A stretch of 64,000 bases of DNA from Vreelandella malpeensis (GTDB lineage: Bacteria; Pseudomonadota; Gammaproteobacteria; Pseudomonadales; Halomonadaceae): NCBI RefSeq assembly GCF_020622355.1, contig NZ_WHVL01000007.1:1-64000 (forward strand), given 5' to 3'. Shown one piece after another: positions 27,583 through 53,676 of the stretch (position 1 is the first letter of the stretch; every line of letters starts with the position of its first letter). A program made the position numbers and the translations under genes. Under the pieces are notes generated by a model, which searched no databases, had not been told where the DNA came from, and saw only the letters and a list, made by a program, of their open reading frames with translations.

Positions 27583-27813
27583 CTACCCCGCTTCATCACT
27601 CGCTGCCGCCAGCATGATATGGCGATAGAGCACGCCCATGGCGGTAGCAAAGAGGAGAGTGACAGCGAACATGATCAGTACGCGAGCCGGCAGCAACGTG
27701 CCCCTTTTCAAGAACCCATCGGTCACCAGCCCGGCAAGGCCGGGAAGCAGCCATAGCAAGACGAACGCACTACCTTGGCAAGGCCGGGGTGATGGCAGTG
27801 GTGCCGTTGACAT
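27583..27813 (-). CDS. Hypothetical small membrane protein
   Basis: This 76-residue frame encodes two hydrophobic segments (about 17-34 and 44-64) separated by a short basic turn, so a two-helix inner-membrane protein is possible. No family is recognised. No good ribosome-binding site precedes the ATG at 27813. It lies between trpS and the decayed Rhs fragment and could be a remnant carried with it. Whether it is expressed is uncertain. Confidence 0.4.
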   Translation of the reverse strand: MSTAPLPSPRPCQGSAFVLLWLLPGLAGLVTDGFLKRGTLLPARVLIMFAVTLLFATAMGVLYRHIMLAAASDEAG

Positions 27814-27839
27814 GAGGGACGGTCTTCTGATTCGACGCT

Positions 27840-27853
27840 CTAAGACGTCTTAG
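27840..27853. repeat. 14-bp perfect palindrome CTAAGACGTCTTAG
   Basis: This is a perfect palindrome, extended imperfectly by ACGC/GCGT on both sides. It sits 18 bases beyond the end of the Rhs-like homology. No T-tract follows on either strand. It could be a protein-binding site or mark a recombination boundary. Neither is shown. Confidence 0.45.
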
Positions 27854-27867
27854 CGTTAGACGACTTT

Positions 27868-28186
27868 CGTGGTAGGGCCGTAGCGTAGGTGCTAGTGTGG
27901 ATCACGCTTACTAAATAGTTAGCGCATTCATAGCCCACCATAAGGCGCTCGCCGTCGGGTTGTAGCCGCTCGATCATATTGCCTGCGTCATCGTAGCGGT
28001 AGCGGATGTCGTTGGGCTGACCCAAGTGGTTATCCGAAATCGTCAGCTGGCCGTCTAAACGGTTACCGGCGACCGCGTAGTAGTGGGTCTTATTGCCGTG
28101 CTAACTGCTTGTGACACTCCCGGTGGAGACGTAGCTACACGCAATCACCTGAGAGTGATCACCCTACAGGATGCAGAAGCTCATCT
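27868..28186 (-). pseudogene. Decayed Rhs/YD-repeat core fragment
   Basis: About 315 bases align collinearly with 29511-29825 of the intact vgrG-rhs gene. Shared landmarks include GGTAGGGCC, CATAGCCCA, GTAGCGG and CGTAGCTA-ACGCAATCACcTg, and the alignment ends at AGAAGCTCATC. A 47-residue stretch still translates as a YD repeat (RYRYDDAGNMIERLQPDGER). Frameshifts and stops interrupt it on both sides, and it lacks the C-terminal Rhs hallmark and any toxin tip. It is much diverged from the intact copy and lies just behind the candidate immunity gene. Relics of displaced Rhs tips are known in this position. Confidence 0.85.
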
Positions 28187-28231
28187 TACAACTATTGATT
28201 GAATTTAAGCCTTAAAATCATCATAGCTGCT

Positions 28232-28495
28232 CTATGAACTCTGAAGTTTACTGACGGTCTTCCAGACATACACTGCACAAATAACAACCATTACGTAAAT
28301 TATCATTATTGAATAAGCTGTTTTTTTATAAAAAAGCTCGCCATCTACCGCCCCTCCAATTGCAAATATAATAAAAATTATAGCCGAGTAAGATAGCAAG
28401 GTTATATTTTTCCCTATTTTATTTACATTTTTATTTAACAATTTAGCTATAAAAAAAATTAAAATAGATATAACAAACAATATAAAATCCATCAT
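28232..28495 (-). CDS. Candidate immunity protein for the Rhs C-terminal toxin (small membrane protein)
   Basis: This 87-residue, very AT-rich gene encodes three hydrophobic segments (about 3-18, 31-48 and 60-80 of the frame), with lysine/asparagine-rich loops. It is therefore predicted to sit in the inner membrane. The ATG at 28495 overlaps the vgrG-rhs stop (ATGA) and uses GAGGAG inside the rhs 3' end. A GTG at 28504 is possible but lacks that spacing. Known: Rhs/CDI toxins are followed directly by cognate immunity genes, and membrane immunity proteins go with pore-forming tips. Inferred: it protects against the 28492-28989 toxin. No named family is recognised. Confidence 0.75.
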   Translation of the reverse strand: MMDFILFVISILIFFIAKLLNKNVNKIGKNITLLSYSAIIFIIFAIGGAVDGELFYKKTAYSIMIIYVMVVICAVYVWKTVSKLQSS

Positions 28496-28989
28496 TTTTG
28501 ACACTCCTCATTACTTTCCATAAAACTATTAACTCCACTATAAGCACCCATTCCTGCAGAGCCAGCTTCAATAGTTAGACCTGTCGCAGTTGCGCTTTGA
28601 TAAGCTGGCACGAAGTCTTCAGGTAAACTACGAAACAGCTGAAATGTTCCAGGCTTCTGTATCGGCCTTAGGAGCCCTCCAACAGAAGTACCTAAATTTG
28701 CACCCTCAATGGCTAAATTTCCCCATTGGTCTCCCAACTGATTAACGGCTGCTTCGCGTGCAAACCCCCTACCATTCTCAGAGAAACCTTCCTCAATATT
28801 ACTAACACCAAGGCCTGCAATAGGCGCGCCCGCTACACAACCCATTACTGTCTTACAGAGAGCCCCTCCCAATAAGACTTGACCACCGCCACCAACAACC
28901 GTAGCGGTACGTGTCAATACATCCATACCCTCGTCTCGGATGAAGCGAGGTATCATTTTAGAATGAAACTTGATGGCTTCCCAAGCATT
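28492..28989 (-). other. Rhs C-terminal toxin module (residues 1767-1931)
   Basis: These 165 residues follow the DPLGL boundary. No nuclease, deaminase or NADase motif is seen. A glycine-rich hydrophobic stretch (residues about 1797-1828, VVGGGGQVLLGGAL and GCVAGAPIAGLG) looks like a membrane hairpin and resembles DUF4225-type Rhs tips. Base composition drops sharply to AT-rich relative to the GC-rich core. A membrane-depolarising or pore-forming action is inferred, supported by the membrane-type immunity candidate. Confidence 0.6.
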
Positions 28990-31900
28990 TAACCCTAGCG
29001 GATCCACCATCTCTGCTGGATTCGCGACATACCCATACAAGTTCGTACCACCGAGCAACCCAATCGGATCCTGACTCACATACCGCCCCTGCTGCGGATC
29101 ATAATACCGATGCCGGTTGTAGTAGAGCCCGCTCTCCTCATCCTGCCATTGCCCCTGAAACCGTATCGGCTGACGGGCACTGCCACGTACATCCTTCACC
29201 GCCGCCCAGTCATCGGGCTGGCCTTGCCACTGAATATCGCCGCTGGCAGCCACGAGCTGCATCGGCGTGCCGATCGCATCCGTGACGAAGGCGCTCAGTT
29301 GCTGCCCCTGTTGGGTATCATCGATTCGTAGCATCGGTACGAAACTGCCCGGTTCGTAGACGATGGTCGAGCGTTGGTTTTCGGACTCTTCCCGCACGAT
29401 GCGGTCGCCGTCCCAGCCGTAGTGGGTGGTGGTGGCGGTGCCGTTGGCATGGCGCACGGCCTTGCTGATCCGGCGGCCCAGGGCGTCGTAGCGGTAGGCG
29501 GCTTCCATGGTAGGGCCATAGGCGCTGGTGCGGGTGAGGCTTACGAGCCGGTTGGCGCCGTCATAGCCCATGGTCAGGCGCTCACCGCTCGGCTGCTGCC
29601 GCTCAATCAGATTGCCTGCGCCATCAAAGCGGTAGCGGGTGCCGTTGTGCTGGGTGAGGCGGTTGTCAGTGACCGGCTGCTGGCCGTCGAGGGGGTTGCC
29701 CGCCGCGTCTACGGCGTAGCGGTGGGCCTGGTCACCGTGCTGGCTGCCGGTGAGGCGGCCGGCGGCATCGTAGCTATACGCAATCACTTGGGCGCTCTCG
29801 CCCTGCAGGGCGCGGAAGCTCATCCGGCCCAGAGCGTCGTACTGGTACTGCTGGCCATTGCTTGCCTGCGCGCCGCTTAGGGTGAGGTGGTCGAGCTGCC
29901 CCAGATTCGTGTAGCCGCGCTCCAGGATCAGCGGCTGGGTCTGGTCGCTCCCGGTCAGGCTCATCTGGCGCCGGGTCTCCCGGTGCAGCGCATCGGGGGT
30001 CAGCTCGATGGCCAGGTTGAGTTCCGGGGCGCTCAGGCCGTGCAGGTGGCCGCTGCCGTAGGTATGCCACTCGAGCGCGGGCAGGTCGCCGAATTGACTC
30101 TGCTGTGGGGCACCGTTGGCGGTGAGCATGTGATGTTGCTGCCACTGCCAGGCACTACCACCATCAATAGCGGCGTGGCGCTGCTGCTCGCCAACCAGTC
30201 GCTGGGCATCGTCGTAGCTGAACGCGACCTCGCCGTGTTCGTTGGTCACACTTAACAGTTGGCCGTTAGCGCCCCAACGGTACTGCTCCTGGCTTGCTGG
30301 GGCGTGCTCGGTGGCGGGTAAGTGGCGCGCCGCAAGGCGACCAGCGGCATCGTATTCGTAGCGCGTGGCAAGCGGCTGGCCGTCCGGGCCGGGGCGGCCG
30401 GCCTCGATGCGTTCGATCAGCTGGCCCGCCGCGTCGTAGCGGTACTGCTGCTCGCGGCCGTCCGGGCCGGTGTCACTGGCCAGCCGGTCCATGCCGTCAT
30501 AGGCGAAGCGATAGACGGCGCCGTTGCCCAGGGTGAGCTCGCTCAGGCGGCCCACGTCGTCGTAGGCGGTAAACTGTTGACTGCCGTCGGCCTCGATGCG
30601 CTGGGCCGGGCGGCCGTGCTCGTCGAAGAAGAACTGCTGGCGGAAGCCTTGGGGGCCTTCCACTTCGACCAGCCGCCCTTGCGGATTGTAATGATGGTGC
30701 CAGTAAAGGCCGTTGGGCAGTTGGGTGGCGGTGCGCCGGCCCAGCGCGTCGTGCTGGGTACGCGTGTTCTCCCCCAGGGCGTTGGTGGCGCTGGCCAGAT
30801 AGCCATGATGATCATACGCGTACTCGGTGCGCTGCTGGGAGCAGTCGATCTCGGCAGTGACCTGGCCCAGCGCGTTCCACTCCCGCTGGTGGGTGGCGCC
30901 CACCGGGTCGGTCACCGTGGTGGGGCGGTCCGGCAGGCGCTCGTCGGCGTAGGCGAACGTGGTGGTGCCTTCCGGGGCGGTGATGTCGACGGGCTGGCCG
31001 CGCTCGTCGCGGGCGATCTGCCAGCGCTGGTTCTCCGGTCCTTCCATGCGGACCGTGTTACCCAGGGCATTGCGTTCGATCGCCCAGCGCTGGCCGTCCG
31101 GCGTGGTCTGACCGATGACCTGGCCGCTGTCGTCGCGCTCGATCAGCGTCTCGCGGCCGAGTGGGTCCACCGTGGCGATCTTGTGTCCGGCGCGGTCGTA
31201 ACGGAATTCGATGCGCGAGCCGTCCGCGCGGGTGTGGGCGGTCCAGCGCTTGCCGGGGCCGCTGCCCACGAAGTGGTAGCGCTCCTCGCGGCCCAGACTG
31301 TCGGTGACCTGGGTGTGATCGATGTGATACTCGTAACGCCGGGCGAGGCCGCCGGCTTCCTGCTGGCCCACGACGCGGCCGTCCGGGGCGTGGCGGTCCC
31401 AGGTGTAGTGGGCTTCCATGCCGCCGGGCACCCGGTGGGCGGTGAGCAGGTGGTTGTCCCATTCGAACTCGCGCACCATCTCGCCGTGGCGATGGCGCAC
31501 GGCGAGCAGATCCCCTAGGGCGCTAAAGGAGTAGCGCACCAGCCAGTCATCGGCGGCGCTGCCGTCCGCCTCCCTGGCCAGCTTCACGCCGGTGAGTCGC
31601 TGGCCAGCGTCACCGGGCCGCTCGGGCAACAGAGACTCGTAGATGAACTGGTAGTGGCGCCCGGCGCTGTCGATGACGCGGGTGAGCAGGTCCGCCTCCC
31701 ACTGATAGGCGGTGGTATAGCCGTTGCGGTCGCGCTCCTCGGCCAGCACCAGCGATGTGGCGCCCTGAGCGCCGGGCGTCGCCGAGGGCGTGAACACGTA
31801 GTAGAGGCCGCCGGTATCGCTCAGGACGATGCGTGAGTCGTCGTCGCGCAGCGCATCATCGAGCAAGGTCCAGCGCGGGGCAAGATTATCGCCCTCCTCC

Positions 31901-34287
31901 ACCGCGCCGCCCCTACGAATCCAGAGCTGTTCGGTGGGAGAAAAGCGCGCTTGCCCGGGGGCCAGCGCGCCAAAGGTGATCTCGCGGCCCTGGGCGTCGT
32001 GAACGACACAGGCGTCGTCACGAAGTGACAGCGACAGGCTGGCCCCGGGCAGCGACCAGCCCTGGCCGAGCGGGCCGACGGTGGCGTTGCTGGAAAGGTA
32101 GCCGCGGCTGAATACGAACGGGCGCGGCGCGGGCAGCGCGAAATCGGTCTCGGCGGGCAGCAGCTTGGCGCCCAGCAGCGGGTTGACCGGGCTGCCCACG
32201 GCGGGCTGGCAGGCGCTGCAGTTGCTCGCCAGGCCGTCGGTGATGTCGATGTCGTCGAAAGCCACCGGCGAGGCGGCGGCGATCTCGCTTGTGAGTGTGG
32301 GCGTCTGGTGAGGCTCGAGGGTGACGTCCTCGCTCTCTTCCGGTTCGGCCTCGCCGGGTAGGCGCGGCAGCACGATCGCCTGACCTCGGCCACGGCCGGG
32401 GCTGCCGCCGGAGTTGATGCGTACCTGAGAGCCCACAATGGTCACACCGCTCGGGTCGAGCTTGATGAAGCTGCCGCCAGCCTTGAGGGTGATCTCGGCA
32501 CCGGCTTCCAGCACGATCTGCGTGCCCGCCTTGTGGTGAACCTCCTGCCCCGCTTCCAGCAGTTGCGCCTCGCCGTACCGCTCGTGGCGGGTCTGGTCTA
32601 CCTGCAGGTGGTCGTCGCCCTCGATGTGGGTGAAGCGGTCGTTGTGGACCGTCAGGTGATCATCGTGATGGATCTCACTGAGACGATTGCGGTGCACCTT
32701 GAGAAAGCTGTCATTGCGGATCTCCTCGGTGCGGTCGTTGAGGGTCAGCAGCTCCAGATCCTTCTGGGCGTGGAGCCAGATCTGCTCTTCCCCTGCTTCG
32801 TCCTCGAAGCGCAGTTCGTTGAAGCCCTCCGCCTTGTGGCTCTGGGTGCGGATGGTGGTACGGGTCTTGTGTTCGGGCAGCGAATACGGCGGCGTATTGA
32901 CAGCATGGTACGTCCGCCCGGTGACCAGCGGCTGGTCCGGGTCGCCTTCCAGAAACGAAACGATGACTTCGTGGCCAATGCGGGGAATGGCGATGCTGCC
33001 GTAACCACCACCGGCCCAGCCTTGGGAGACGCGCACCCAGCAGCTGGCCGTGTCGTCGGGTTCGGCGTAGCGGTCCCAAGGGAACTGGACTTTCACCCGG
33101 CCGTGCTCATCGCAGTGAATCTCCTCGCCCTCGGGGCCGACCACGAACGCCACCTGGGGGCCGTCGATGCGAGGCTTGGGGTTGGGGGTGGCGCGCCAGG
33201 GGGCGTCGCCGGGCATGAGGGTGATCTGGTTGGTGTAACGCGTCATGCCGCTGGCGTCACCCTGGGTCATACCATCTTCTTCCAGCGCCTGGGGCTGTTC
33301 GCCCGTGTGCTCGGCCGCCACCACCTGCCAGTCGCGGTTGAGGTTCTGCGTATCGTGGCCGGTGAGGCTGAAGCGCACGCCGGGGGCGAGTTCCGGCAGA
33401 TCGCTTTCGGCACTCGCCGTGGTGGCATCGCGGCGCAGATGTTCGAGGCGGATGCGTGTGAAGGGCTTGCCGGAGGCGTCCTGCTTGTAGCGTCCGGGGT
33501 AGTCGAAGTGCTCGTAGTCGCTCTGCTGGCCGTGGTCCGCGATATCCTCGCCTTCGTGGTCGTGGAGCTGGGCGTAGGCGGGGTTCTTGAAGCTGTAGTC
33601 CTTGAGTTGGGCGCTGGCGGCGGCGACCCGGGCGGTGTGGCTGAGCTTGCGCACATGGCGCGTGGGCGGCGTGCCGCCGGCGCGGCTGTGGTAGGTGCGC
33701 TCGCCCAGGTTGGTCAGTGCCTGCGGGTCGTCGGAGAACACCAGTCGGTGGGCGCCGCCGTCACTGTCTTCGCCTTTCTCATCAAACAGGTGAAAATAGA
33801 ATAGTCCTTCCTCAGCGGCGAGGCGCTCGATGAAGGCGAGATCGGTCTCGCGGTACTGCACGCAGTACTCGCGCTCGGCGGGTTCTCGGCTGACCGCGAA
33901 GGCCACATCGGTGATGCCGCGCTCGTCCAGCAGGGTGTTGATGATGGTGAGGGGGTCCACCTTCTGGAAGATGCGCGAGTTGTGGCGAAGCGACGTGCGC
34001 CACAGCGCCGGGCGCAGCGTGAGGGTATAGAAGGTGCGCCGGTGGCCGCGATCGCCGCGACCGAACTCGCTGATGATACCGTGGACCTGGCGCAGCGGCG
34101 CGCCGTCCTGCCATACGGTGAGCGTCGCTTCGCGATCGAGCAGCTCGGCCGCGTCCAGATCACCATCACGGCTGGCGAGGGTGGCGGTCAGCGCGAAGGG
34201 TTCGGAGAGGGCCTCGCGGTGGGTGAAGTCGATGACCGCGACGTCATCGACGCCGGGAATAGTGAGCGTAAATTTTACATTGTTCAT
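28492..34287 (-). CDS. VgrG-Rhs fusion: T6SS spike with Rhs toxin cage
   Basis: A 1931-residue protein. Residues 1-635 are a full VgrG: gp27-like hub, gp5-like OB region (WVRVSQGWAGGGYGSIAIPR near 417-436) and a beta-helix with repeating acidic/His strands (about 510-625). Residues about 690-735 look like the Rhs N-terminal domain (PVNPLLGAKLLPAETDF...RGYLSS), followed by many YD repeats. The core ends with DPIGLLGG-x11-13-NPAEMVDPLGL (to 1766), the usual autocleavage region. Residues 1767-1931 are the variable toxin tip. It follows PAAR-lysozyme and its immunity gene and is followed by an overlapping membrane protein gene. It is the only VgrG in the cluster. The ATG at 34287 follows AGAGG. 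Confidence 0.93.
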   Translation of the reverse strand: MNNVKFTLTIPGVDDVAVIDFTHREALSEPFALTATLASRDGDLDAAELLDREATLTVWQDGAPLRQVHGIISEFGRGDRGHRRTFYTLTLRPALWRTSLRHNSRIFQKVDPLTIINTLLDERGITDVAFAVSREPAEREYCVQYRETDLAFIERLAAEEGLFYFHLFDEKGEDSDGGAHRLVFSDDPQALTNLGERTYHSRAGGTPPTRHVRKLSHTARVAAASAQLKDYSFKNPAYAQLHDHEGEDIADHGQQSDYEHFDYPGRYKQDASGKPFTRIRLEHLRRDATTASAESDLPELAPGVRFSLTGHDTQNLNRDWQVVAAEHTGEQPQALEEDGMTQGDASGMTRYTNQITLMPGDAPWRATPNPKPRIDGPQVAFVVGPEGEEIHCDEHGRVKVQFPWDRYAEPDDTASCWVRVSQGWAGGGYGSIAIPRIGHEVIVSFLEGDPDQPLVTGRTYHAVNTPPYSLPEHKTRTTIRTQSHKAEGFNELRFEDEAGEEQIWLHAQKDLELLTLNDRTEEIRNDSFLKVHRNRLSEIHHDDHLTVHNDRFTHIEGDDHLQVDQTRHERYGEAQLLEAGQEVHHKAGTQIVLEAGAEITLKAGGSFIKLDPSGVTIVGSQVRINSGGSPGRGRGQAIVLPRLPGEAEPEESEDVTLEPHQTPTLTSEIAAASPVAFDDIDITDGLASNCSACQPAVGSPVNPLLGAKLLPAETDFALPAPRPFVFSRGYLSSNATVGPLGQGWSLPGASLSLSLRDDACVVHDAQGREITFGALAPGQARFSPTEQLWIRRGGAVEEGDNLAPRWTLLDDALRDDDSRIVLSDTGGLYYVFTPSATPGAQGATSLVLAEERDRNGYTTAYQWEADLLTRVIDSAGRHYQFIYESLLPERPGDAGQRLTGVKLAREADGSAADDWLVRYSFSALGDLLAVRHRHGEMVREFEWDNHLLTAHRVPGGMEAHYTWDRHAPDGRVVGQQEAGGLARRYEYHIDHTQVTDSLGREERYHFVGSGPGKRWTAHTRADGSRIEFRYDRAGHKIATVDPLGRETLIERDDSGQVIGQTTPDGQRWAIERNALGNTVRMEGPENQRWQIARDERGQPVDITAPEGTTTFAYADERLPDRPTTVTDPVGATHQREWNALGQVTAEIDCSQQRTEYAYDHHGYLASATNALGENTRTQHDALGRRTATQLPNGLYWHHHYNPQGRLVEVEGPQGFRQQFFFDEHGRPAQRIEADGSQQFTAYDDVGRLSELTLGNGAVYRFAYDGMDRLASDTGPDGREQQYRYDAAGQLIERIEAGRPGPDGQPLATRYEYDAAGRLAARHLPATEHAPASQEQYRWGANGQLLSVTNEHGEVAFSYDDAQRLVGEQQRHAAIDGGSAWQWQQHHMLTANGAPQQSQFGDLPALEWHTYGSGHLHGLSAPELNLAIELTPDALHRETRRQMSLTGSDQTQPLILERGYTNLGQLDHLTLSGAQASNGQQYQYDALGRMSFRALQGESAQVIAYSYDAAGRLTGSQHGDQAHRYAVDAAGNPLDGQQPVTDNRLTQHNGTRYRFDGAGNLIERQQPSGERLTMGYDGANRLVSLTRTSAYGPTMEAAYRYDALGRRISKAVRHANGTATTTHYGWDGDRIVREESENQRSTIVYEPGSFVPMLRIDDTQQGQQLSAFVTDAIGTPMQLVAASGDIQWQGQPDDWAAVKDVRGSARQPIRFQGQWQDEESGLYYNRHRYYDPQQGRYVSQDPIGLLGGTNLYGYVANPAEMVDPLGLNAWEAIKFHSKMIPRFIRDEGMDVLTRTATVVGGGGQVLLGGALCKTVMGCVAGAPIAGLGVSNIEEGFSENGRGFAREAAVNQLGDQWGNLAIEGANLGTSVGGLLRPIQKPGTFQLFRSLPEDFVPAYQSATATGLTIEAGSAGMGAYSGVNSFMESNEECQK

Positions 34288-34342
34288 ACTACTATGCCTC
34301 TGTTTTCAATGGATACTTGTATTGACATGGGTACCGCCGCTT

Positions 34343-34822
34343 TCATCTGACGGCTGTCCGTTGCAACTGATAAAACCATCCATCCAAAAACAGCCATAAC
34401 TCACCGTTAACTATTTCGAAGGAGTACGTAGCATCATCGTTTTCATCACAGAATACGCTCAACTCATTGATAACGTTACGATCTTCACCATAGCCATAGA
34501 AATTACCATACCTTTCACTGCTGCTTGGAACCTCTCCCTCTATTTCATTCACGTAATGATTTTCTATGGCATAATGTGGATTCTCACACCCGTCGTCGTT
34601 CCAGAAAGTAAAGACATCTTCCTGTACGGAAATTCTAGAGTCCTGACGTAGCAAAGCCTCTTCACGGGTGGTCAATCCACCGCGATAGCGCTCTATGAGA
34701 TGTACCTCATACAGACCATAAACGGAGTCAATTAATACGCTCTCATCGACACTTTTAGCCTGCGTAGAGGCAATAGGTAATAACCAAAAAAACAAAAAGG
34801 AGAAAGCAGTCAGATTTACCAT
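34343..34822 (-). CDS. Candidate periplasmic immunity protein for the PAAR-lysozyme effector
   Basis: A 159-residue protein with a clear Sec signal peptide (hydrophobic 4-17, predicted cleavage after STQA). The mature part is acidic, with three cysteines and several aromatic residues (YGNFYGYGEDR). Its ATG overlaps the effector's stop codon (34816-34822), so the two are coupled. Known: immunity to cell-wall-degrading T6SS effectors works in the periplasm. No named family is recognised. The gene is AT-richer than the tss genes. It could alternatively be a Lprl-type lysozyme inhibitor of unknown fold. Confidence 0.7.
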   Translation of the reverse strand: MVNLTAFSFLFFWLLPIASTQAKSVDESVLIDSVYGLYEVHLIERYRGGLTTREEALLRQDSRISVQEDVFTFWNDDGCENPHYAIENHYVNEIEGEVPSSSERYGNFYGYGEDRNVINELSVFCDENDDATYSFEIVNGELWLFLDGWFYQLQRTAVR

Positions 34823-35700
34823 GTTTCATACACTCCTTTCGAGAACATATCCCATTCGGCTTTTCTACGATTAATAAGACCTTGGTTAACCTGCCCGTTA
34901 GAGATATTCCATGCTTTCCAGGCATCTTCAAGTGATGCGTAAGGAGTCTGCGCTTCAGGATCATTCAGCAGCTTTACGACAGATGAAGAATTAAAACCGC
35001 CAACACCGATGTTATAGGCAAGTATGTAGGCTGCATCTGCTTGATGCTCTTCAAGAGGCACTTCTATGGCACGATTGACAGCGTCGACAAAAGGCGAAAT
35101 ATCGTCCTGAAATATCTGCTCGGCTTGTTCTTGAGTAATACCATCTTTGTAAGTTGGCCACTCCTGACGGGAAATTAAATGGCCATATCCAATCGTTGCA
35201 CCCGGTACCCATCGCTCTATTGGACGACCTGTTTGATCATCGTAAGGGTGCAGGCGCAACTCCTCGACCCCTTTCAACCAATTCTCCCCCTGCGAACTCA
35301 AGGATGACGATTCAGAGGGTTCACTCGATGCTTCGTGAGTGCCATTGGTGTTTACCATTCCGGCAGCTACCGAAGAAAGAGCGCTGGAGGCGGTATGACC
35401 TCCCGTTATAGTGCTACCTCCTTCCCCGGAGCCAGAACCGATCACCACGCCGCCGCAATCGACCGCATGGCCCGTCAACGCCGCGGGCTTGCCGTCGATC
35501 AGAATCGTGCCGGAACCTTGAGCAATCGCGCGTGGGTGCTTGGGATGATTGGGCTTGTCGTGGGGCTCCAATGGATCGCCCACGCGGGCCATCGGTTTGC
35601 CATCCATGATCACCGTGGCGCTGCCGGCGGCGACAGGCGTCGGGGGAAAGCCATCGTGGTCGGTTCCCATATCGCCTACGAGTACGAATTTCTGGCCCAT
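34816..35700 (-). CDS. PAAR-domain T6SS effector with GH24 lysozyme domain
   Basis: In the 294-residue protein, residues 1-95 are a PAAR spike-tip domain with paired GD-x-T/H-x-G elements and conserved His/Cys (VGDMGTDHDGF; LTGHAVDCGG). Residues about 96-138 are a Ser/Gly-rich linker. Residues 139-294 are a T4/P21-lysozyme-like muramidase. By alignment with T4 lysozyme, E146 (in VEELRLHPYDD), D155 and T169 (in ATIGYGHL) match E11, D20 and T26, with an insert of about 8 residues between. It should cleave peptidoglycan in a rival's periplasm. AGGAGC precedes the ATG. It is followed by an overlapping immunity candidate. Confidence 0.88.
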   Translation of the reverse strand: MGQKFVLVGDMGTDHDGFPPTPVAAGSATVIMDGKPMARVGDPLEPHDKPNHPKHPRAIAQGSGTILIDGKPAALTGHAVDCGGVVIGSGSGEGGSTITGGHTASSALSSVAAGMVNTNGTHEASSEPSESSSLSSQGENWLKGVEELRLHPYDDQTGRPIERWVPGATIGYGHLISRQEWPTYKDGITQEQAEQIFQDDISPFVDAVNRAIEVPLEEHQADAAYILAYNIGVGGFNSSSVVKLLNDPEAQTPYASLEDAWKAWNISNGQVNQGLINRRKAEWDMFSKGVYETW

Positions 35701-35778: not shown

Positions 35779-36363
35779 CTACTCATTCCACTTAGCGGGT
35801 GCCTCGAAACTAGCGACTTCCAAGGCGTCCACGTACTGGCGGGTGAAGCCCGCCGTCTCGAGGCTGTCGATGGCGCTCTGGCAGGCCAGTGGCAGGCGCG
35901 TCTGCAGCGGCACGCCGCTCAGGGTGACGCGCAGGGCGCGCAGCAGTCGCGTGCCGTGGCCGCTGCCCTTCCACTCGCGGCTGATGAAGAAAAAGCGGAT
36001 CTGCCAGGCGGCCTCGTCGTCCGGGCGGCAGGCCAGCACCATGCCCAAGGGCGGCCCTTCGCCGTGGCGCAGCGACAGAAGCCGCCCCTGCCAGTGGGCC
36101 ACCTGGCCGTCGTCGCGCTGCAGCCAGAGGCCGCGGTGCACGGTGAACTCCAGCGCGCGGCGCAGCGTCTGCAGTGCGGTGTCGTCACGCAGTACCCAGG
36201 GCGATTGGCCCTTGGCGTCCGCCTGAACCACCGCCTCGAGAAAGCCGTCGATATCCTCGTCGCGGGCCTTCTCCAGCGGGCGCGAGTGGCGGGTGCGCTG
36301 GCGGCGGTGGCGCGAGGCGGGCTTGTCCGCGCGGGAAAACAGCTTTTTAAATGGCGTCAGCAT
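35779..36363 (-). CDS. GNAT-like acetyltransferase in the T6SS cluster
   Basis: A 194-residue protein between tssM and the PAAR effector. It has a basic N-terminus (residues 18-34, Arg-rich) and a GNAT fold signature: motif A IRFFFISREWKGSGHGTRLLRAL (split over 122-144) with the acetyl-CoA loop G133-S-G135-H-G137, and a typical AGF near 171. Start: a longer frame exists, but the ATG at 36363 overlaps tssM by 17 bases and fits coupling. The target is unknown; it may modify a T6SS component, an effector or the cell itself. GNATs are not core T6SS parts. Confidence 0.7.
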   Translation of the reverse strand: MLTPFKKLFSRADKPASRHRRQRTRHSRPLEKARDEDIDGFLEAVVQADAKGQSPWVLRDDTALQTLRRALEFTVHRGLWLQRDDGQVAHWQGRLLSLRHGEGPPLGMVLACRPDDEAAWQIRFFFISREWKGSGHGTRLLRALRVTLSGVPLQTRLPLACQSAIDSLETAGFTRQYVDALEVASFEAPAKWNE

Positions 36364-39300
36364 GGCCACCTCGCTCGGCGTAGAGGGCGGAGGGCAGCTG
36401 GAAGCCCGCCGCCAGGGGCCGGGTAAAGGGGTTGGGCGCGCCGCCGGCGTAGAGCCGGTAGCGCATGGTGCCGCCATCCACGTTGAAGCGAAGCTCCAGC
36501 TCACGCTCGCTCACACTTGTGATATCGGCCTGCTCGAGCAGGCGAAACCACGCCCAGGCGCCGTCCTGGGCGACGCTTCTGGGCGAGCGGTTGACCTCGC
36601 TGGGCACCAAAGTGATGCGGCTTTCGGTGCCGCCGCGCAGGGAATTGGGCCAGATCATCGATACCCGCTGGCTGGCGCTGTGGGCATACTCGATCAGCTG
36701 GCCATCGACGCTGATGACGCTGCGCCGCTTGTTGGCGCTCAGGCTCACCGGCTCCAGAGCGAACTCCACGTCGAGCGCGCCGTCGCGGCTGAAGTAGGCG
36801 CGGCGAATCTGCTCAGCCTGGTCCACCGCGGTGTAGAGGCTTTCACGCAAGAGCGAGTTGCCCTCGGCGTCGGTCAGGTACTCCGGCGCCCCCTCGATGA
36901 AGGGCTGCAGGCTATCCTGATAGAAGGTGTCGAGGATGCCGCCGGGGGCAAAGAAGTCCTCGAAGTCGCTGAGCGCCACTTCCCGGGAGGCGCCGGGGGC
37001 GAGCGGATAGCGGCCCGCCAGGCGCTCCTGGTAGGGCGCGACCACATCGTCGAGCCACAGACTTTCCAGGTGGCGAGTGGCACTGGCCATCATCAGCTCC
37101 CAGCTCTGGTCGGCCAACTGGTGCAGCATGCGCCCGACCGGCTCCGGCGTGTCGTCGGCGATGCGCTTGAGGTTCTCGAGGGGGTCGCTACCGCGCAGCG
37201 ATAGACGGTCACGCACGCTGACGAAGGCGCTGCGGCCCGAATCGCTGGACTCCTCGATCTCGCGCAGGTAGTCGCGAAGTTGAGTGATGGCGACCTTGAT
37301 CTCGGTGAGCGACGACGGGTTGTCGTTGTCCGCCTGACCGAGCCGGTTGATCGGCGTGAACGGCTGCTCGATGGCCAGCGCCAGCTGGTAGCGCTGGGAC
37401 TGACGCAGCGCCTCGCGGGCCTGATCGTCATCCTCGGGCAGCTCCGGGTAGAGGCTGGTGTTGCGCGCAACCGCATCGAGCAGCCGGTCCAGCGGGCGCT
37501 GGGCGCCGACCAGGGCGTCCGCCACCACGATGGCCTGGTGGATGTCCGGCAGCGGTACCAGGCGGATATCGCGCAGCGCGTCGCGCCAGCTCACCTGGTA
37601 GTCGCTGACGTAGTGCTCGCGCAGCGCCACCTGCAGCTGCTCCTTGTCCGCCTCGCTGAAGTCGATGTCGTCGCGCTGGCCCAGTACCCAGACGTCGATC
37701 AGGGCGAGCTCCACGGCGCGGTCGAGTTCCTGCAGGAAATAGTTCTCGAAGCCGTCGCGAGTCACCAGGTACGCCAAGCGCACATGCTCCGGGTCGTCGT
37801 TGCGAGCCATGAAGACGGTGTTGAAGAGCGTGCCGACACTGCGACGCAGATCCAGCGGCTCGCCGCGGCGGTTGCCGGCGGCCTTGAGCGCGGCGTAGAC
37901 CCGCTCGTCGATGGGCTGACGCAAGAGATCCCGCTGGGCGGCCTCGATGCTGCCCGCAAGCGGCGCCATGGCCTGCTCGGCGCGGGGGCTGCCCGCCTCG
38001 ATGCGGCCCTCCAGGTCGCTGTGGGCCATGGCGTAGTCGAGGTGCCCCATCAGGCGCTGCTGCACGTCGGCCTGCTGCGGGAAGTAACCCTGCCAGCGGT
38101 TGGCCATGTAGCGCTCCACCCGCTCGGTCTGGCGGCCGCTCTGGTCGGACATCATGCGCAGCACCCGCAGCAGGGCGAGCTTCTCGTTGCTGCCCTCCTC
38201 GGCACGGTTCATGTCGTCCATGATGCCGATCATCAATGCCGGCAGGAACTGGTTCTCGAGCATGGCCAGGTACGCCCGCTCCACCTGGGCGCCGATCACG
38301 TGGCCCTGGTAGAGCCCCATGTCGGCGAAGTACGGCGTATGGGTGCGGTACTCGCCGAAGGTCTGCATGGCGTAGCGCAGCCGGTCCAGCGGTTCGAGCA
38401 GCTCACGGCCGCTGGGATCGTCGCTCTGGAAGGCGTCGGGCTGGGTGGCCAGGAAGGTTTCCGCACGCTCCTCCACCGCGGATAGCGACACGCTGTTCTT
38501 CTGGTAGAAGTGGGTCCAGCCGCCCACCAGCGCCACGCCAAGCACCGCGCAGAAGGCCAGACTTGCGTTGCGCGCGCGCTCCCGGCGCCGAGTGACGCGG
38601 GCGTTGTCCGCCGCCAGTCCCGCCTCCGGGTAGATGACCTTGTCGAACAGCTCCTCGGTGAAGTAGAGGGCGCTGCGGGTAGCCCGGTGGGCGGGCTGAA
38701 CGCTGTCGTCCATGCCGTAGCGCCGCGCGGCAGCGTCGACGAAGGGGTCCTCCGGCACGCCCTGCTGGTACACCGAGGTGAAGTAGGTACCGCGCACCAT
38801 CGCCGCCGTGGAGAAGCGGTCGCTGGAAAGCGACTCGGTCAGAAATCCCAGCAGTACGTCGCGAAGCCCGGCGAGCTGGCGCACGAAGCGAAACACCGAC
38901 TCGCGCTCCTCGCGGTCGCGACACTCGGCGAGCATGGTGGGCAACAGCTGGTTCAGGCGCGTCAGCATCGCATCGAAGTCCGCCGCGAACTCGCGCTCCC
39001 ACTGCCCTGGTGTCTCCATCGAGCCCGGCGTGAAGGTGAAGCCCAGCGGCGCCTTGCGCGCGGCGCGCGAGTAGTGGCGGAAGAAGTCGTCGAAGCCATG
39101 CAGCAGATCCATCTTGCTGAAAGTGACGTAGACCGGAAGCCGGGCGCCGTGGCGCTCCATCAGCTCTCGCAGGCGGCTGCGCAAGAGGGCCGCGTAGGCC
39201 TTGCGCACGGCGACCTGGGCGTGACTCAGGCGCGCCAGGTCGAGCACCAGCACGACGCCGTCCAGCGGGCGCTGGGCACGGTTGCGCTCCAGCCAGTCGA

Positions 39301-39994
39301 CGAAGTGATCCCAAAGCCGGCGCTGAAGCTCCTGGGGCTCGCCGCCTTCCATGGCGCCCTGGGTCAGCAGCTCGCCGTCCGGGTCGATCAGCACCGCCTG
39401 GTCGCCGATCCACCAGTCGAAGCCGAGCTGGCCCTGCTTACTGCTCTGCCCGGACGCCTTCATCACGTGGGTCAGGGCGAAGTTCTGCCCGGAGCGGTTG
39501 ATCAGGCTGGTCTTGCCGGCGTTCTCGACGCCCATGACCAGGTACCAAGGCAGCCGGTAGCGGGCATTGCCGCCGCCCAGGCTCTCGGTGATCTCGCCAA
39601 GCACGGCATTGAGCGAGGTCTCCTGGCGCTCGATCTGGGCGAGGATCGGGTCCTGCTGGAGCGCCGCTTCCTGGGCGCGTTCGGTATCGAGCTCGCGCAG
39701 CCGACGCGCCAGGCGCACGCCCCACACCACAGCGACCAGCGCCACGATGACCAAGGTAGCTGCCACGCGATTGACGAAGGGCGCCAGTGGCGTCACGCCG
39801 CCGATTTCCCAACCGGGCCCGAACCACCAGATCGCCACCAGCAGCAGGAGCACCAGGACCGCCCACAGCACCATGGAGAGCCGTGACAGCCCGCGCGCCT
39901 TGTTGGCATGGGCGTTGGCCCGGTTCTTCGCTGTCTGTGCCCTGGAGAAGCCCGGCACCCAGCGGCTTAGCGTCGATTTCAAGGTTGACCACAT
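36347..39994 (-). CDS. tssM: T6SS membrane-complex protein TssM (IcmF/VasK)
   Basis: This is the inner-membrane core of the T6SS trans-envelope complex, linking TssL to the outer-membrane lipoprotein TssJ. The 1215-residue protein has two N-terminal TM helices (about 40-58 and 76-93), a cytoplasmic NTPase-like domain with Walker A G155-VENAGKT162, a third TM (near 485-505), and a long periplasmic part ending in the TssJ-binding domain. The Walker A is intact. It is the last core gene of the operon and overlaps the GNAT gene. Confidence 0.96.
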   Translation of the reverse strand: MWSTLKSTLSRWVPGFSRAQTAKNRANAHANKARGLSRLSMVLWAVLVLLLLVAIWWFGPGWEIGGVTPLAPFVNRVAATLVIVALVAVVWGVRLARRLRELDTERAQEAALQQDPILAQIERQETSLNAVLGEITESLGGGNARYRLPWYLVMGVENAGKTSLINRSGQNFALTHVMKASGQSSKQGQLGFDWWIGDQAVLIDPDGELLTQGAMEGGEPQELQRRLWDHFVDWLERNRAQRPLDGVVLVLDLARLSHAQVAVRKAYAALLRSRLRELMERHGARLPVYVTFSKMDLLHGFDDFFRHYSRAARKAPLGFTFTPGSMETPGQWEREFAADFDAMLTRLNQLLPTMLAECRDREERESVFRFVRQLAGLRDVLLGFLTESLSSDRFSTAAMVRGTYFTSVYQQGVPEDPFVDAAARRYGMDDSVQPAHRATRSALYFTEELFDKVIYPEAGLAADNARVTRRRERARNASLAFCAVLGVALVGGWTHFYQKNSVSLSAVEERAETFLATQPDAFQSDDPSGRELLEPLDRLRYAMQTFGEYRTHTPYFADMGLYQGHVIGAQVERAYLAMLENQFLPALMIGIMDDMNRAEEGSNEKLALLRVLRMMSDQSGRQTERVERYMANRWQGYFPQQADVQQRLMGHLDYAMAHSDLEGRIEAGSPRAEQAMAPLAGSIEAAQRDLLRQPIDERVYAALKAAGNRRGEPLDLRRSVGTLFNTVFMARNDDPEHVRLAYLVTRDGFENYFLQELDRAVELALIDVWVLGQRDDIDFSEADKEQLQVALREHYVSDYQVSWRDALRDIRLVPLPDIHQAIVVADALVGAQRPLDRLLDAVARNTSLYPELPEDDDQAREALRQSQRYQLALAIEQPFTPINRLGQADNDNPSSLTEIKVAITQLRDYLREIEESSDSGRSAFVSVRDRLSLRGSDPLENLKRIADDTPEPVGRMLHQLADQSWELMMASATRHLESLWLDDVVAPYQERLAGRYPLAPGASREVALSDFEDFFAPGGILDTFYQDSLQPFIEGAPEYLTDAEGNSLLRESLYTAVDQAEQIRRAYFSRDGALDVEFALEPVSLSANKRRSVISVDGQLIEYAHSASQRVSMIWPNSLRGGTESRITLVPSEVNRSPRSVAQDGAWAWFRLLEQADITSVSERELELRFNVDGGTMRYRLYAGGAPNPFTRPLAAGFQLPSALYAERGGHADAI

Positions 39995-40065
39995 GAGCCT
40001 TCGTCCCTCGTCCCTTTAATGATGATCACCGGTTAATCCCGGGGGTGAAAAATGCCTGGCTGTCG

Positions 40066-41514
40066 CTAGGGCGTCTGTTTCAAGGCGGCGTCGAGGCGCG
40101 ACACCAGCGCGGGCTCCCACTGCTCCAGCGCGAGCTCGGTGGCGGTCTGCTGCAACGTGGCGTAATGCTGACGCGCGAGGCTCCCAAGCCCCGCTTCGCT
40201 CATCAGCTCGGCGCTGGCCAGGCGCCAGTAGGCGCTCTCCCGGGGCGAGCGCGCCGCACTCAGGCCGCTATCCAGCACCTTCAGGGCCGCGCCGGTATTG
40301 CCCTGCTCGAGCGCCTCGCGCGCCTCCTCGAGCCCCTGCTGCCACGCCTCGCCACCGCTTTCCGGCGCGCTACCACCGCCCGGGCCGCTGTGCAGCCAGC
40401 GTGCGGTCTCGTCGTCGAGAAATGCAGCACCGCTTTGAAACGTGAGCGCCTCGATGCCCGGCAAGCGCTCGACGAAGCGCTGGGTCTCGTCGCGAATCGC
40501 CTCGGCGCAGCGCATGTGTCCCAGGGTTTTCGCCAGCCCCGCGCTCAGCCGGTGGCCTTCGAGCCAGTAGGGGCTCAGCGCCAGGCTCTTCTCGATGCGC
40601 GCCCAGAGTGCCTCGTCACCCCCCTTGCTGATCGCCTCGCGATACTCCGCCGTGCGGTCTGCCGAAACCGGCGCAAGCTCGGTCTTGCCGCTGGCGTTGG
40701 CACCCGGCAGCGCCTGGATCGTGCTCCAGATCGCGTAGCGGCGCAGGCGGTAGGCGAGCGGCTCGCCTGGCGACTGTTCGGCGAGAAACTCCGCCATGTT
40801 GAGCAGCGCCTGGCGGTTGGCGCGTTCGTTGCCCGCCTCCAGGCGAAGCTCCGGTGCCTTGGCCGCCGTCGCTGATGGCGCTTCGCGCGGAGTCGAAGGC
40901 GCCGCCTCGGAAGGCGCCGCGGGCGCTCCTGGAGCCGGTGGCGCGGCGTCCTGGGCCGGGCGCTTGTCGCCGAGTTTGCGGGTCAGCTCGTCGAGCGTCT
41001 GGTGGGGCAACGAGCGTTTGGCTACTTCCTGGGCCAGCTCGCCAAGCGACGTCTCGCAGGCCTCGAGCTCGTCTTGGGCGTTATGGAAATCGAGCGTATC
41101 GACGAGCTTGACGCTGCGCTGGACGAACTGCTGGAACAGCCGCGGGCGCAGCTTGGCTCCACGCTTGCCGGCAAAGGGGTAGGCGCTTTCCCACCAAGGC
41201 GCGGCGATGGCTCGGGCCAGCAGGCGCAGCGACAGCGCGAAGCGCACGCCGCTACCGCCGTGCTGCATACAGTGCAGCAGATGGCCCAGCACCTTCAGGT
41301 CCTTGCCACACTCGGCGAGCAGGCGCACCGCCAGGGTCTCGGCCCGCTCCCAGTCGATGCCGCCATGCTGGAGCGAGCCGATCTTCATCATCTCTTCGTC
41401 CAGCGCCAGGTAGTCGCTGCCCTCCTCCACCGGCTCGCCCACCGGCGCCCCGTCGGCGTTGTCGGGCAGCGGGGCAAGCAGTGACGCCAGCTGGGATTCC
41501 GCGGTGATTCTCAT
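40066..41514 (-). CDS. tssA: T6SS protein TssA (VasJ-type)
   Basis: TssA primes the baseplate and helps sheath/tube polymerisation. The 482-residue protein has an N-terminal ImpA domain (ASLLAPLPDNADGAPVGEP near 8), an Ala/Pro-rich linker (about 187-222), and a C-terminal VasJ-like domain (ALLNMAEFLAEQSPGEPLAYRLRRYAIW). This matches the VasJ/TssA2 class rather than the short ImpA-only class. The position after vasI equals that of vasJ in V. cholerae. Confidence 0.93.
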   Translation of the reverse strand: MRITAESQLASLLAPLPDNADGAPVGEPVEEGSDYLALDEEMMKIGSLQHGGIDWERAETLAVRLLAECGKDLKVLGHLLHCMQHGGSGVRFALSLRLLARAIAAPWWESAYPFAGKRGAKLRPRLFQQFVQRSVKLVDTLDFHNAQDELEACETSLGELAQEVAKRSLPHQTLDELTRKLGDKRPAQDAAPPAPGAPAAPSEAAPSTPREAPSATAAKAPELRLEAGNERANRQALLNMAEFLAEQSPGEPLAYRLRRYAIWSTIQALPGANASGKTELAPVSADRTAEYREAISKGGDEALWARIEKSLALSPYWLEGHRLSAGLAKTLGHMRCAEAIRDETQRFVERLPGIEALTFQSGAAFLDDETARWLHSGPGGGSAPESGGEAWQQGLEEAREALEQGNTGAALKVLDSGLSAARSPRESAYWRLASAELMSEAGLGSLARQHYATLQQTATELALEQWEPALVSRLDAALKQTP

Positions 41515-41523
41515 CGTTCCTCC

Positions 41524-42167
41524 TTACCAGCCGCAGGCGTCGCGCAGCGGATCGATGGCCTGGCGAAGGCCGGTGACGTCGAAGCGCAGCCCGTCGAGGG
41601 CGGCCACGTCGCTTTGCAGGGTGACGGTGCTGGCACCGAGCAGCTGGCGCAGCGTCTCGATGGCCGGCAGGCCCCGGCCGCCGCCGACGACCCGGCCACC
41701 GTCGCGCACCCGCCACTGCTGGGTGACACTGCCGTTGTCGCCGCTCAGGCGCACCTCCACTCGGGCCTGACCGAGGGGCTCGGGCAGGTGCAGTTGAAAG
41801 CGCGTGATCCATTTCTCGCAGGCCAGCACCATGATCGGGCGCGGCGGGGTGGTCCCGAGCGCCGGCACGCTGATCAGGATGTCGTCCTGGGTCTGGTTCG
41901 CGATCAGCCCCATGTCGCCCTCCTCGCGGCCGGCCTCCTGACGCTCGATGGCGTACCAGAGCGCAGGCAGCTCGTCCGACGCCTCGGAAGGCGCGGCGTC
42001 GAGAAACAGCGCGTCGTAGCAGTTCAGACGCTCCAGGCGCGAGCCCTCCTGGGCGCAGCTGCGCGCCTGCTCCAGCAGCGCGCCCGGCTCCTGTGCGGTG
42101 GCGAGATTCGTCAGGCCCAGGGTCAACAGCGCGCCATATAGCCAGCGGCGTTTTGCAAACGTCACGT

Positions 42168-42171
<4 letters not shown>
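41524..42171 (-). CDS. vasI: T6SS-associated periplasmic protein VasI (VC_A0118 family)
   Basis: This is an accessory T6SS protein of unclear role. The 215-residue protein has a Sec signal peptide (cleavage predicted after NLATA). It has cysteines in ARSCAQEG, LNCYDAL, VLACEKW and at the C-terminus, and the LxCYD motif near the N-terminus typical of the VC_A0118 family. Its ATG overlaps the vasH stop (ATGA). The order vasH-vasI-vasJ-vasK is as in Vibrio. Confidence 0.88.
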
Positions 42172-43760
<1,589 letters not shown>

Positions 43761-43764
43761 GGCG

Positions 43765-46368: not shown

Positions 46369-46376
46369 GGCATCTC

Positions 46377-47213
46377 CTAACGGTAAAGTTGGTTGAGAAG
46401 CGTGGTGATCTGCTCGGCCTGCTGATCGAGCGAGTAGGCAAAGCCCCAGTACACCGCCACCATGGCCACGCCGAACAGCGCGAAGATGCCCCAGAGGGGG
46501 AAATTGCTCCCCCGGCGCCGGCGGCCCTTGACCACGTTGTCGAGCGGATGGGTGAGCGTGTCCTCACCGACCGGCTCGAGCGAGGAGAGCTGGTCGCCGA
46601 GGGCGCGCACGATCTGTTCGTACTCGTCGCGACCGTGGGACATCACCCGGTAGCGCCCCTCGAACCCCAAGCACAGGCACAGGTAGATGAAAGCCAGCAT
46701 GTCGCGGTAGCGCTTGGGCTCCTGCTGGAGCCGGGCGAGGATCGAGAACACCTTCTCGCCGCCCCAGGTCTCGTTGTGAAAGCGGGTGAGCAGCGAGTGC
46801 TCCGCCCACTTGCTCTGGCGCCCCCAGGGCATGCCCATGACCGCCTCGTCGATGAACGAACACAGCACGTAGCGGTAGGCCAGCAGCGTCGCCCGGTCGT
46901 AGCCCTGCTCGGTCAGCTCGATCTCGATGGCGGCGATCTCGTCGACCACCTGGCGGTAGAGGCGCTCGACATCGGAAACGTGATCAAGCTGGCGTACCCG
47001 CACCACCATGCCCAGAAGGCTTCCGGCGGCGTCGACCAGCGGATTGAGGTTGTGCCCGCGCAGCCGGAACCAGTAGTCCTCGTCGGCGTCGAGCTGCTCG
47101 GCGTGGCTGTGGATCAGGTGCTCGAGCCCGCGTTCGTTGATCAAGTCCTCGTGGCGCCCTTTCATCGCCGCGCGGTTCGTCGTGTTCTGCCCATCGGTCG
47201 CTAGCTGTTGCAT
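46377..47213 (-). CDS. tssL: T6SS membrane protein TssL (DotU/IcmH)
   Basis: This is an inner-membrane partner of TssM and TssK. The 278-residue protein has a cytoplasmic DotU domain (FRLRGHNLNPLVDAAGSLLG; LCSFIDEAVMGMPWG; FIYLCLCLGFEGRYRVM) and a single C-terminal TM helix (about 240-260). It has no peptidoglycan-binding extension, so wall anchoring must come from another protein. The start lies three bases after the tssK stop. Confidence 0.95.
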   Translation of the reverse strand: MQQLATDGQNTTNRAAMKGRHEDLINERGLEHLIHSHAEQLDADEDYWFRLRGHNLNPLVDAAGSLLGMVVRVRQLDHVSDVERLYRQVVDEIAAIEIELTEQGYDRATLLAYRYVLCSFIDEAVMGMPWGRQSKWAEHSLLTRFHNETWGGEKVFSILARLQQEPKRYRDMLAFIYLCLCLGFEGRYRVMSHGRDEYEQIVRALGDQLSSLEPVGEDTLTHPLDNVVKGRRRRGSNFPLWGIFALFGVAMVAVYWGFAYSLDQQAEQITTLLNQLYR

Positions 47214-47216
47214 GGT

Positions 47217-48551
47217 TTAACTCCTGATCGCCCAGAACTGCATTTCCAGGCCCGGGAACTCCCCGGCCACGTGGAACGCGAAGCCGCTGGCGCCGTCGAG
47301 CATGCTCCAGGCCTCGCTCTGGCGATCCAGCTGGAAGTAGGTATAGCCGGCGTGGTAGGGCAGCTCCCGCGGCGCCACCGGCAGCGGCTCGAGCGGAATG
47401 CCCGGCAGCTGCAGGCTGATGAGATCGCGAATGCGCTCGACGCTGGCCACCTTGGTCTGTTGCAGGAACAGCTTGCGCAGCCGCTCGTTCGGCATGTCGG
47501 CGCGCACCGCGAGGATGAACTGGGCGGACTCGATCAGGCTTGCGTCGGACAGCGGCGCCACCAGCAGGCCGAAGCGGCGCGACTGCAGCTGGATCGCCAC
47601 CGCGCGGGGCTCGAGCACCGTCGAGAGCGCCTGGCGCAGCATCCGCATCAAGGGCTTGAAGGCGCGCTCCGGGTGATCGTGGTCGTAGGCCGGGCACTCC
47701 GGCGGCAGGCGCGACTCGTCGGTGAAGGTGATCAGCTCGCAGGCGACTTCATGCATGGTGTCGTAGAGACGCTCCGGATGGAGCTGGCCCAGGCGCGCCA
47801 GGTGCTGAAAGCGCGGCTGGGCGCGGTTGAGAAGCTGCAGCAGCATGAAGTCGGCGACGTCCGCCACCCCCGCCTGGTGGGGCGTGGAAAGGCGCTGGGC
47901 GATGTTGCGCGCGCGTTCGCGCATCAGCCCCGCCATCTCGCCGACGAAGCGCTGAAGGCCAGGCGCCGCCTGAACGTTCAAAAGCGTCGGCAGGAACTGT
48001 TCGTCGAGCACCAGGCTTCCGTCCGGGCGGCGCTCGACGATGCGCGCCACCGCAAGGCACGCGTAGCCGCTGCGATCGTCGCGCTCGAGCAACAGCCGGG
48101 GCGAGACGCGAGCGACGTCGAGCTCTGCCGAGGCACCTTCCTGAGAGTGCAGATCGCGCACGCTGCGCGTGGTCATCCGGTAGCGCGCGGGCAAATCGTC
48201 CTCGGGCCAGCGCACCTCGCCGACACCGTCGGTGGCAAGCGGAATGCCCAGGTATACCACCTGGTTGGTGAGGCTGGCGTCAGCGACCTCGAGTGCGGCG
48301 GGCTCCAGATCGTCCCCGGGCAGGTGGAACGCCACGCCGTCCGGCATCACGCCGCTGGCACGACTCAGGGCGATGCGCCCGAAGCTCAGGAATTCCTGGT
48401 TGAGCTCGAGGGTCAGAAAGCCGTAGAGATAATGGCTCACGCCCTTGAGCCGCGTATCCAGAAGCCCTTCGAGACTTCGCTGCTGCTGCTGGAAGTGCTG
48501 AGGCTTGATGAACAGCCCCTCGCTCCAGACCACACGGTTACGACTGGCCAT
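47217..48551 (-). CDS. tssK: T6SS baseplate protein TssK
   Basis: TssK trimers connect the baseplate wedges (TssEFG) to the membrane complex. The 444-residue length is typical. The conserved N-terminus RVVWSEGLFIKPQHFQQQ and the C-terminal receptor-like region (YTYFQLDRQSEAWSML) are present. The ATG shares one base with the tssJ stop. Confidence 0.96.
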   Translation of the reverse strand: MASRNRVVWSEGLFIKPQHFQQQQRSLEGLLDTRLKGVSHYLYGFLTLELNQEFLSFGRIALSRASGVMPDGVAFHLPGDDLEPAALEVADASLTNQVVYLGIPLATDGVGEVRWPEDDLPARYRMTTRSVRDLHSQEGASAELDVARVSPRLLLERDDRSGYACLAVARIVERRPDGSLVLDEQFLPTLLNVQAAPGLQRFVGEMAGLMRERARNIAQRLSTPHQAGVADVADFMLLQLLNRAQPRFQHLARLGQLHPERLYDTMHEVACELITFTDESRLPPECPAYDHDHPERAFKPLMRMLRQALSTVLEPRAVAIQLQSRRFGLLVAPLSDASLIESAQFILAVRADMPNERLRKLFLQQTKVASVERIRDLISLQLPGIPLEPLPVAPRELPYHAGYTYFQLDRQSEAWSMLDGASGFAFHVAGEFPGLEMQFWAIRS

Positions 48552-50463: not shown

Positions 50464-50466
50464 GGC

Positions 50467-53213: not shown

Positions 53214-53231
53214 GGGTGTCTCGCCGCGCCG

Positions 53232-53663: not shown

Positions 53664-53676
53664 AGCGTGGTTCACC

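Follow-up and report, generated by a model that had tools for sequence, protein, structure and literature searches.

The window analysed here, 64,000 nucleotides of Vreelandella malpeensis (contig NZ_WHVL01000007.1, positions 1 to 64,000), carries a type VI secretion system (T6SS) gene cluster that ends in a gene encoding a VgrG spike protein, an Rhs toxin cage and a toxin tip. This gene is a single uninterrupted frame of 1931 amino acids (aa) on the minus strand of 28492-34287; frame 1 of the plus strand over the same interval is riddled with stops. The cluster is the sole T6SS cluster of the genome, which has one VipB/TssC.

Domain searches and the open frame confirm the sequence-only reading that VgrG (residues 1 to about 635), an Rhs N-domain, a YD barrel reaching residue 1766 and a distinct tip share one frame. 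In the VgrG module, Phage_GPD occupies aa 24-331, the OB domain 393-460 and the gp5 trimer domain 477-582, with Phage_GPD, Phage_base_V and Gp5_trimer_C all above cut-off. The VgrG profile TIGR03361 is matched over its full length at 618.6 bits (cut-off 186.35), which places the module among T6SS VgrG (TssI) proteins, and aa 24-636 and 20-630 align with the VgrG structures 7q5p and 4mtk, respectively. The Rhs part comprises DUF6531 (698-772), ten RHS-repeat stretches and Rhs_assc_core, which reaches 1766. Its DPIGL and DPLGL motifs end at aa 1744 and 1766, leaving the 17-residue spacing of Rhs effectors; DPhGL-X17-DPhGL is described as the canonical arrangement of T6SS Rhs proteins (PMC13285283). 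The nine top fold matches of the cage are T6SS Rhs cages without exception. A complete VgrG and a complete cage on one chain are also what defines the VgrG-Rhs fusion of Advenella. We consider it quite probable that the gene encodes a fused VgrG-cage-tip effector with putative self-cleavage, a PAAR-lysozyme cap and ends that can be swapped.

Table 1. Features at the fusion locus (window coordinates)
Feature	Position	Strand	Basis
VgrG-Rhs-DUF4225 fusion, 1931 aa	28492..34287	-	single open frame and domain matches
VgrG module, aa 1-635 (gp27-like head, OB, gp5-like beta-helix, up to INSGGSPG)	32383..34287	-	Pfam/NCBIfam and structure alignment
Linker, aa 636-699, ending CSAC-x-PAVGS, varying within the family	32191..32382	-	alignment of relatives
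DUF6531 N-plug with putative N-terminal self-cleavage site S699/P700 (PVNPLLGAK)	31972..32196	-	Pfam; Tse5 alignment
Rhs/YD cage, aa 700-1766, closing with DPIGL-X17-DPLGL	28990..32190	-	
Toxin tip, aa 1767-1931, DUF4225, GC 47%	28495..28989	-	
87-aa protein, three hydrophobic segments, likely DUF4225 immunity protein	28232..28495	-	4-base ATGA overlap with fusion stop
Degenerate end of an older Rhs cage, after the immunity gene	27787..28184	-	blastn 70.6% over 405 positions against the L063 fusion; stops in all three frames
159-aa protein, single N-terminal hydrophobic segment, probable lysozyme immunity	34343..34822	-	translation and hydropathy
PAAR and phage-type lysozyme effector	34816..35700	-	family search
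T6SS cluster: TssM, TssA, VasI, sigma-54 activator, AAA+ ATPase, TssL, TssK, TssJ, Fha, TssF, TssE (gp25-like), TssC	36347..55161	-	

The fused junction recurs widely among relatives. Within the genus, a query spanning it (aa 480-800) matches 38 of 82 genomes and covers the whole junction at 18 places in 14 genomes. Across the family, a query from the Rhs side (aa 620-800) against 275 genomes finds 28 places in 24 genomes. At one of these (G273, Terasakiispira) the cage is a separate gene beside a partly masked VgrG; the other 27 places, spread over 23 genomes, all have VgrG, or at minimum its C-terminal part, in frame with the cage. Samples of 390 genomes from the order and 369 from the class yielded only two matching genomes each, both of the genus, and none outside the family. 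A collection of named genomes gave 29 loci: 19 fused in Halomonadaceae, one in Terasakiispira and nine that are unfused in the DNA examined, these last from Thauera, Tahibacter, Azoarcus, Parazoarcus and Pseudomonas. In the unfused family cage of Terasakiispira (L111 / L089) no PAAR-like segment is visible to the eye, and the cage apparently overlaps a separate VgrG frame at the latter's end. An internal start from which Rhs could be made separately, raised by the sequence-only reading as an objection, was looked for: between codons 358 and 937 of the fusion there is no in-frame ATG, and codons 541-760 hold six in-frame GTG and no TTG. The GTG in the linker (codon 639) is preceded by a GAGG-like stretch, and its residue is V in many, not all, relatives (compared by eye, residues only); a weak internal Rhs start at this codon appears unlikely.

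The architecture, put forward at first as unusual, is not new: PDB entry 8QJA is an 'Advenella mimigardefordensis VgrG-Rhs core'. We take this entry to be that of Kielkopf et al. 2024. A 2026 paper citing Kielkopf et al. describes Rhs proteins as 'less commonly' fused to VgrG (PMC13324451), and VgrG, PAAR and Hcp1 are listed elsewhere as T6SS leader domains with RHS repeats (PMC3482391). The literature searched on Rhs-VgrG fusions and Halomonas yielded no published account of a Halomonadaceae VgrG-Rhs family. Although the Advenella protein has the same architecture, its cage is merely 24% identical to the window cage by structural alignment, and its junction and N-plug give no match to a profile of the Halomonadaceae junction at E<=1. 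The nearest cage is instead that of the unfused Tse5 (42% identity), with a phmmer score of 830 bits as against 251 for Advenella. These differences suggest a separate fusion event; the Halomonadaceae fusion is apparently its own, separately arisen family of an already known kind.

Comparison with Tse5 of Pseudomonas aeruginosa (PDB 8CP6) suggests what VgrG may have replaced. Tse5, whose toxin is reported to be a pore former, has a 47-residue N-terminal fragment where the fusion has VgrG (PMC10684867); the Tse5 family arrangement of a short fragment before the shell and a separate VgrG does not apply to the fusion, in which VgrG itself holds that place. Unfused cage relatives start some 45-50 residues ahead of the equivalent site (starts judged by eye), and four of the six tested show a weak PAAR match (E 0.0004 to 0.05, all under the Pfam cut-off). 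RhsA of Pseudomonas protegens (PDB 7Q97) is unlike the fusion, being described with an N-terminus of prePAAR, transmembrane domain and PAAR, an EagR chaperone and a predicted DNase tip (PMC8765631).

At the C-terminus, the tip matches DUF4225 over aa 1783-1898 with 27.5 bits where the cut-off is 25.9; so narrow a margin is a point against this assignment. DUF4225 is reported to be an antibacterial toxin that lyses E. coli from the periplasm, to occur in VgrG- and RHS-containing polymorphic toxins, and to be neutralised by an 89-aa immunity protein with three transmembrane segments encoded immediately downstream (PMC9765294). The 87-aa protein that follows the fusion likely fills this immunity role. 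In Franzmannia (L106), a tip 81% identical to that of the window is likewise followed by a protein 54% identical to the 87-aa protein, with 68% identity in the cage and 72% in VgrG. The characterised Vibrio parahaemolyticus pair shares the toxin family and the short membrane immunity protein directly downstream, but its DUF4225 is a separate effector after hcp, whereas here it forms the tip of a cage (PMC9765294). By analogy, the tip would damage the envelope; its structure model was unusable.

The composition and boundaries of the tip point to exchange. GC content at third codon positions (GC3) is 34% in the tip versus 83% in the cage. Against the closest relative, G060, whose junction is 97% identical, DNA homology ends at 28994, four bases before the DPLGL codons finish; against Franzmannia it extends to 28247, almost the end of the immunity gene. 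Among 18 tips extracted from fused relatives, ten were scanned, and three of these match RNase A-like, Ntox16 and TseH-like families while seven have no match; three of the other eight (L096, L104, L106) are similar to the window tip. As expected of an Rhs effector, the fusion has a variable tip that is swapped at the cleavage site and followed by a candidate immunity gene. The AT-rich tip appears to have been acquired horizontally, with tips swapped at DPLGL, and the remnant beyond the immunity gene is likely a scar of tip displacement.

Orphan Rhs tip cassettes are present at L076 15833-17422, L077 12549-12872 and 16526-17131, L079 3092-4732, L102 12558-14258 and L101 12464-13174. Of 39 rows of such cassettes near fusions, nine start at cage residue 700-709; some rows are the same DNA twice and three are unfused cages. 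Several cassettes have a short leader such as MTHIRLK or MTYIKLR ahead of HTYGSGHLHG, and in L101 the leader precedes cage residue 355. Their boundary is possibly a conserved start or a recombination boundary.

The VgrG head also appears to have been exchanged. The sequence-only reading took the fusion to be the only VgrG in the cluster, which holds within the T6SS cluster; the genome nevertheless has a second full-length VgrG, stand-alone and on another contig, 88% identical over residues 4-624. Compared in blocks, the two are 76-100% identical over aa 1-550, with nine of the 11 blocks reaching at least 88%, and identity falls to 58% at 550-600; with the G079 fusion, the window fusion shares 56-80% of residues in aa 1-400 and 78-96% in aa 400-700. 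In a tree of 23 fused and 24 stand-alone VgrGs, in which the fused group was tested after the first tree had been viewed, the fused VgrG parts do not form one clade: four changes are required, 0% of 200 bootstrap trees have one, and the approximately unbiased (AU) test gives p 4.4e-6. Most fused VgrGs sit in two large clusters. Heads (aa 1-500) were compared for 21 fused proteins, leaving out four broken copies and two genomes without a stand-alone VgrG. Among the stand-alone VgrGs fetched, that of the same genome is at least 90% identical to the fused head in 16 of the 21 and is the nearest in 12.

These patterns suggest that the fusion swaps parts at both ends, its head with resident VgrGs and its tip with other toxins. 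Three observations weigh against exchange of the head. The position of the window VgrG in the tree is itself an open fork; the nearest stand-alone head comes from another genome for nine of the 21 fused proteins; and in five of the 21 the genome's own stand-alone VgrGs, as fetched, are just 71-83% alike. Because of the latter two, part of the head match may be plain kinship.

The expectation that the spike is reached without PAAR was not borne out, as a PAAR-lysozyme gene lies just upstream of the fusion. It is the genome's sole match to PF05488 (PAAR_motif), DUF4150-type PAAR-like proteins not having been sought, and for this reason it may cap every spike. The 159-aa protein encoded between it and the fusion has no family match in Pfam or NCBIfam. 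In L077, which shares the gene order TssM-PAAR-lysozyme-immunity-fusion, a 44% homologue stands after the PAAR-lysozyme, consistent with a probable role as the lysozyme immunity protein. The AAA+ ATPase of the cluster is, we presume from its position and domains, ClpV. The order differs in G060 (L063 926-8363), where a PAAR gene, a stand-alone VgrG, several more genes and a second PAAR gene stand between TssM and the fusion; most of this stretch (3207-8360) has no blastn match in window 27000-40500, and the PAAR of the window bears a lysozyme instead.

In the proposed working of this system, the VgrG module would trimerise, by itself or together with the second, stand-alone VgrG, and the PAAR-lysozyme would cap the trimer. 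The tip would fold within the cage and be released there by the DPLGL aspartyl-protease site, and cleavage at the S699/PVNPLLGAK site would probably separate cage and VgrG-linker, with the end of the linker staying anchored inside the cage. On firing, the cage would enter a competitor, and the DUF4225 tip, acting in the periplasm, would lyse the cell; the 87-aa protein would shield kin. As VgrG would stand in place of the short PAAR-like docking segment of Tse5-like relatives, the cage would need no docking and the PAAR site would be free for another effector. Exchange of the head with resident VgrG genes and of the tip with other toxins would allow cargo and machine fit to be renewed separately.

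The number of cages per spike depends on which subunits assemble. If one or two fused subunits combine with the 88% identical stand-alone VgrG, a spike would carry one or two cages. A further VgrG (Phage_GPD) frame, 605 aa or longer, occurs in each of the 21 fusion genomes that have VipB, the two that lack VipB (G036, G134) have no other VgrG frame, and heads are often matched within one genome. However, several VgrGs per genome are usual, which makes the 21 of 21 weak, and matched heads may instead reflect baseplate fit, kinship or general gene conversion. In Serratia, moreover, VgrG1 and VgrG2 are reported not to have mixed, a point against any mixed spike, and it is argued there that two Rhs proteins cannot share one PAAR-docked spike (PMC4924876). 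Mixed trimers are, in our judgement, a serious contender whose chances fall somewhat below even. Only tentatively, and with more doubt, do we extend the fused-effector scheme to its fullest form: an independent, self-cleaving Halomonadaceae VgrG-cage family that would beat the one-Rhs-per-spike limit of PAAR-docked cages, with up to three cages, a spike tip free for the PAAR-lysozyme, two envelope toxins per shot, and homogenised heads permitting mixed spikes of tunable cage number.

The family would represent a second route to load an Rhs capsule, born on the spike and not docked, and apparently arrived at more than once. Given the Serratia argument, it offers a natural test of cage number per spike, of whether a cage must be cut loose to function, and of whether VgrG heads are held compatible through gene conversion.

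Whether the cage remains attached to VgrG turns on the sequence at the end of the linker. In the alignment with the mature Tse5 shell chain (8cp6_B), P700 falls opposite residue 1, and the match begins exactly there. Tse5 is reported to be cut at K47-P48 and L1168-I1169 (PMC10684867), and RhsA at H304-P305, with A and K at +7 and +8 (PMC8765631); PVNPLLGAK of the fusion has A and K at these same positions. Of 28 frames examined, the script retained 25, all fused and the window copy among them, and every one has the site PVNPLLGAKLLPAETDF unchanged. Its filter dropped L081, L087 and L089; L087 also carries the site, and L089, which is unfused, shows a variant of it. The fusion has the site, in register with the end at which the Tse5 shell is cut, and self-cleavage after S699 is likely. 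By analogy, the mature fusion may consist of three non-covalently held pieces. The claim that the cage is covalently part of the spike stands for the translation product; because the invariant PVNPLLGAK coincides in the alignment with the beginning of the Tse5 shell, which is self-cleaved, the cage is perhaps not covalently retained in the mature protein, which may be cut at S699/P700.

If the link is instead left uncut, each spike would permanently bear three cages on covalent linkers. The residue preceding the cut (P1) is S in the fusion, neither the K of Tse5 nor the H of RhsA, and the glutamates of TseI are replaced by A and K. The structure model places the linker or tether and both cleavage sites at a predicted local distance difference test (pLDDT) score under 50, which counts against the proposed scheme. 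The linker is in frame in all 25 frames shown, and Tse5 is reported to kill without N-terminal cleavage (PMC10684867). Yet RhsA, with the same A and K, is described as cut (PMC8765631), the block PVNPLLGAK...ETDF is invariant among fused relatives although the linker before it varies, and the alignment to the cut Tse5 chain starts precisely at P700. An uncut link is therefore unlikely, though far from negligible, and self-cleavage is preferred.

A further alternative sees in the fusion no working effector but a cassette that is decaying or kept in store as a recombination donor. In four of the 27 copies (G057, G011, G107, G167) the frame starts well inside VgrG, the G060 fusion is short of roughly the first 30 VgrG residues, remnants and orphan cage ends adjoin many copies, and the two fusion genomes without VipB have no sheath, which speaks against a working effector there. 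Against decay, the window copy is intact, lies in the sole T6SS cluster and has a likely immunity gene directly after it, and 23 of the 27 copies hold all or nearly all of VgrG and cage in one frame, counting that of G085, which runs off the contig end within the cage. Decay is improbable, and a working effector is the better reading. In the sheathless genomes G036 (L075, L102) and G134 (L080, L101), an unbroken fusion frame is the sole VgrG match, an orphan spike-toxin without a machine; G134 is additionally without a PAAR match.

An assembly or sequencing error joining two genes, which the sequence-only reading had named as grounds for rejecting the fusion, is ruled out for practical purposes, since the identical junction recurs at 27 places in 23 of 275 family genomes and no point in favour of error was found. 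The junction is also found, over 98% of the query and at 85.7% identity, at NZ_CP040452.1 641736-642677, where no gene is listed; this Halomonas sp. PA16-9 record, 1.83 Mb long, is entered as a plasmid.

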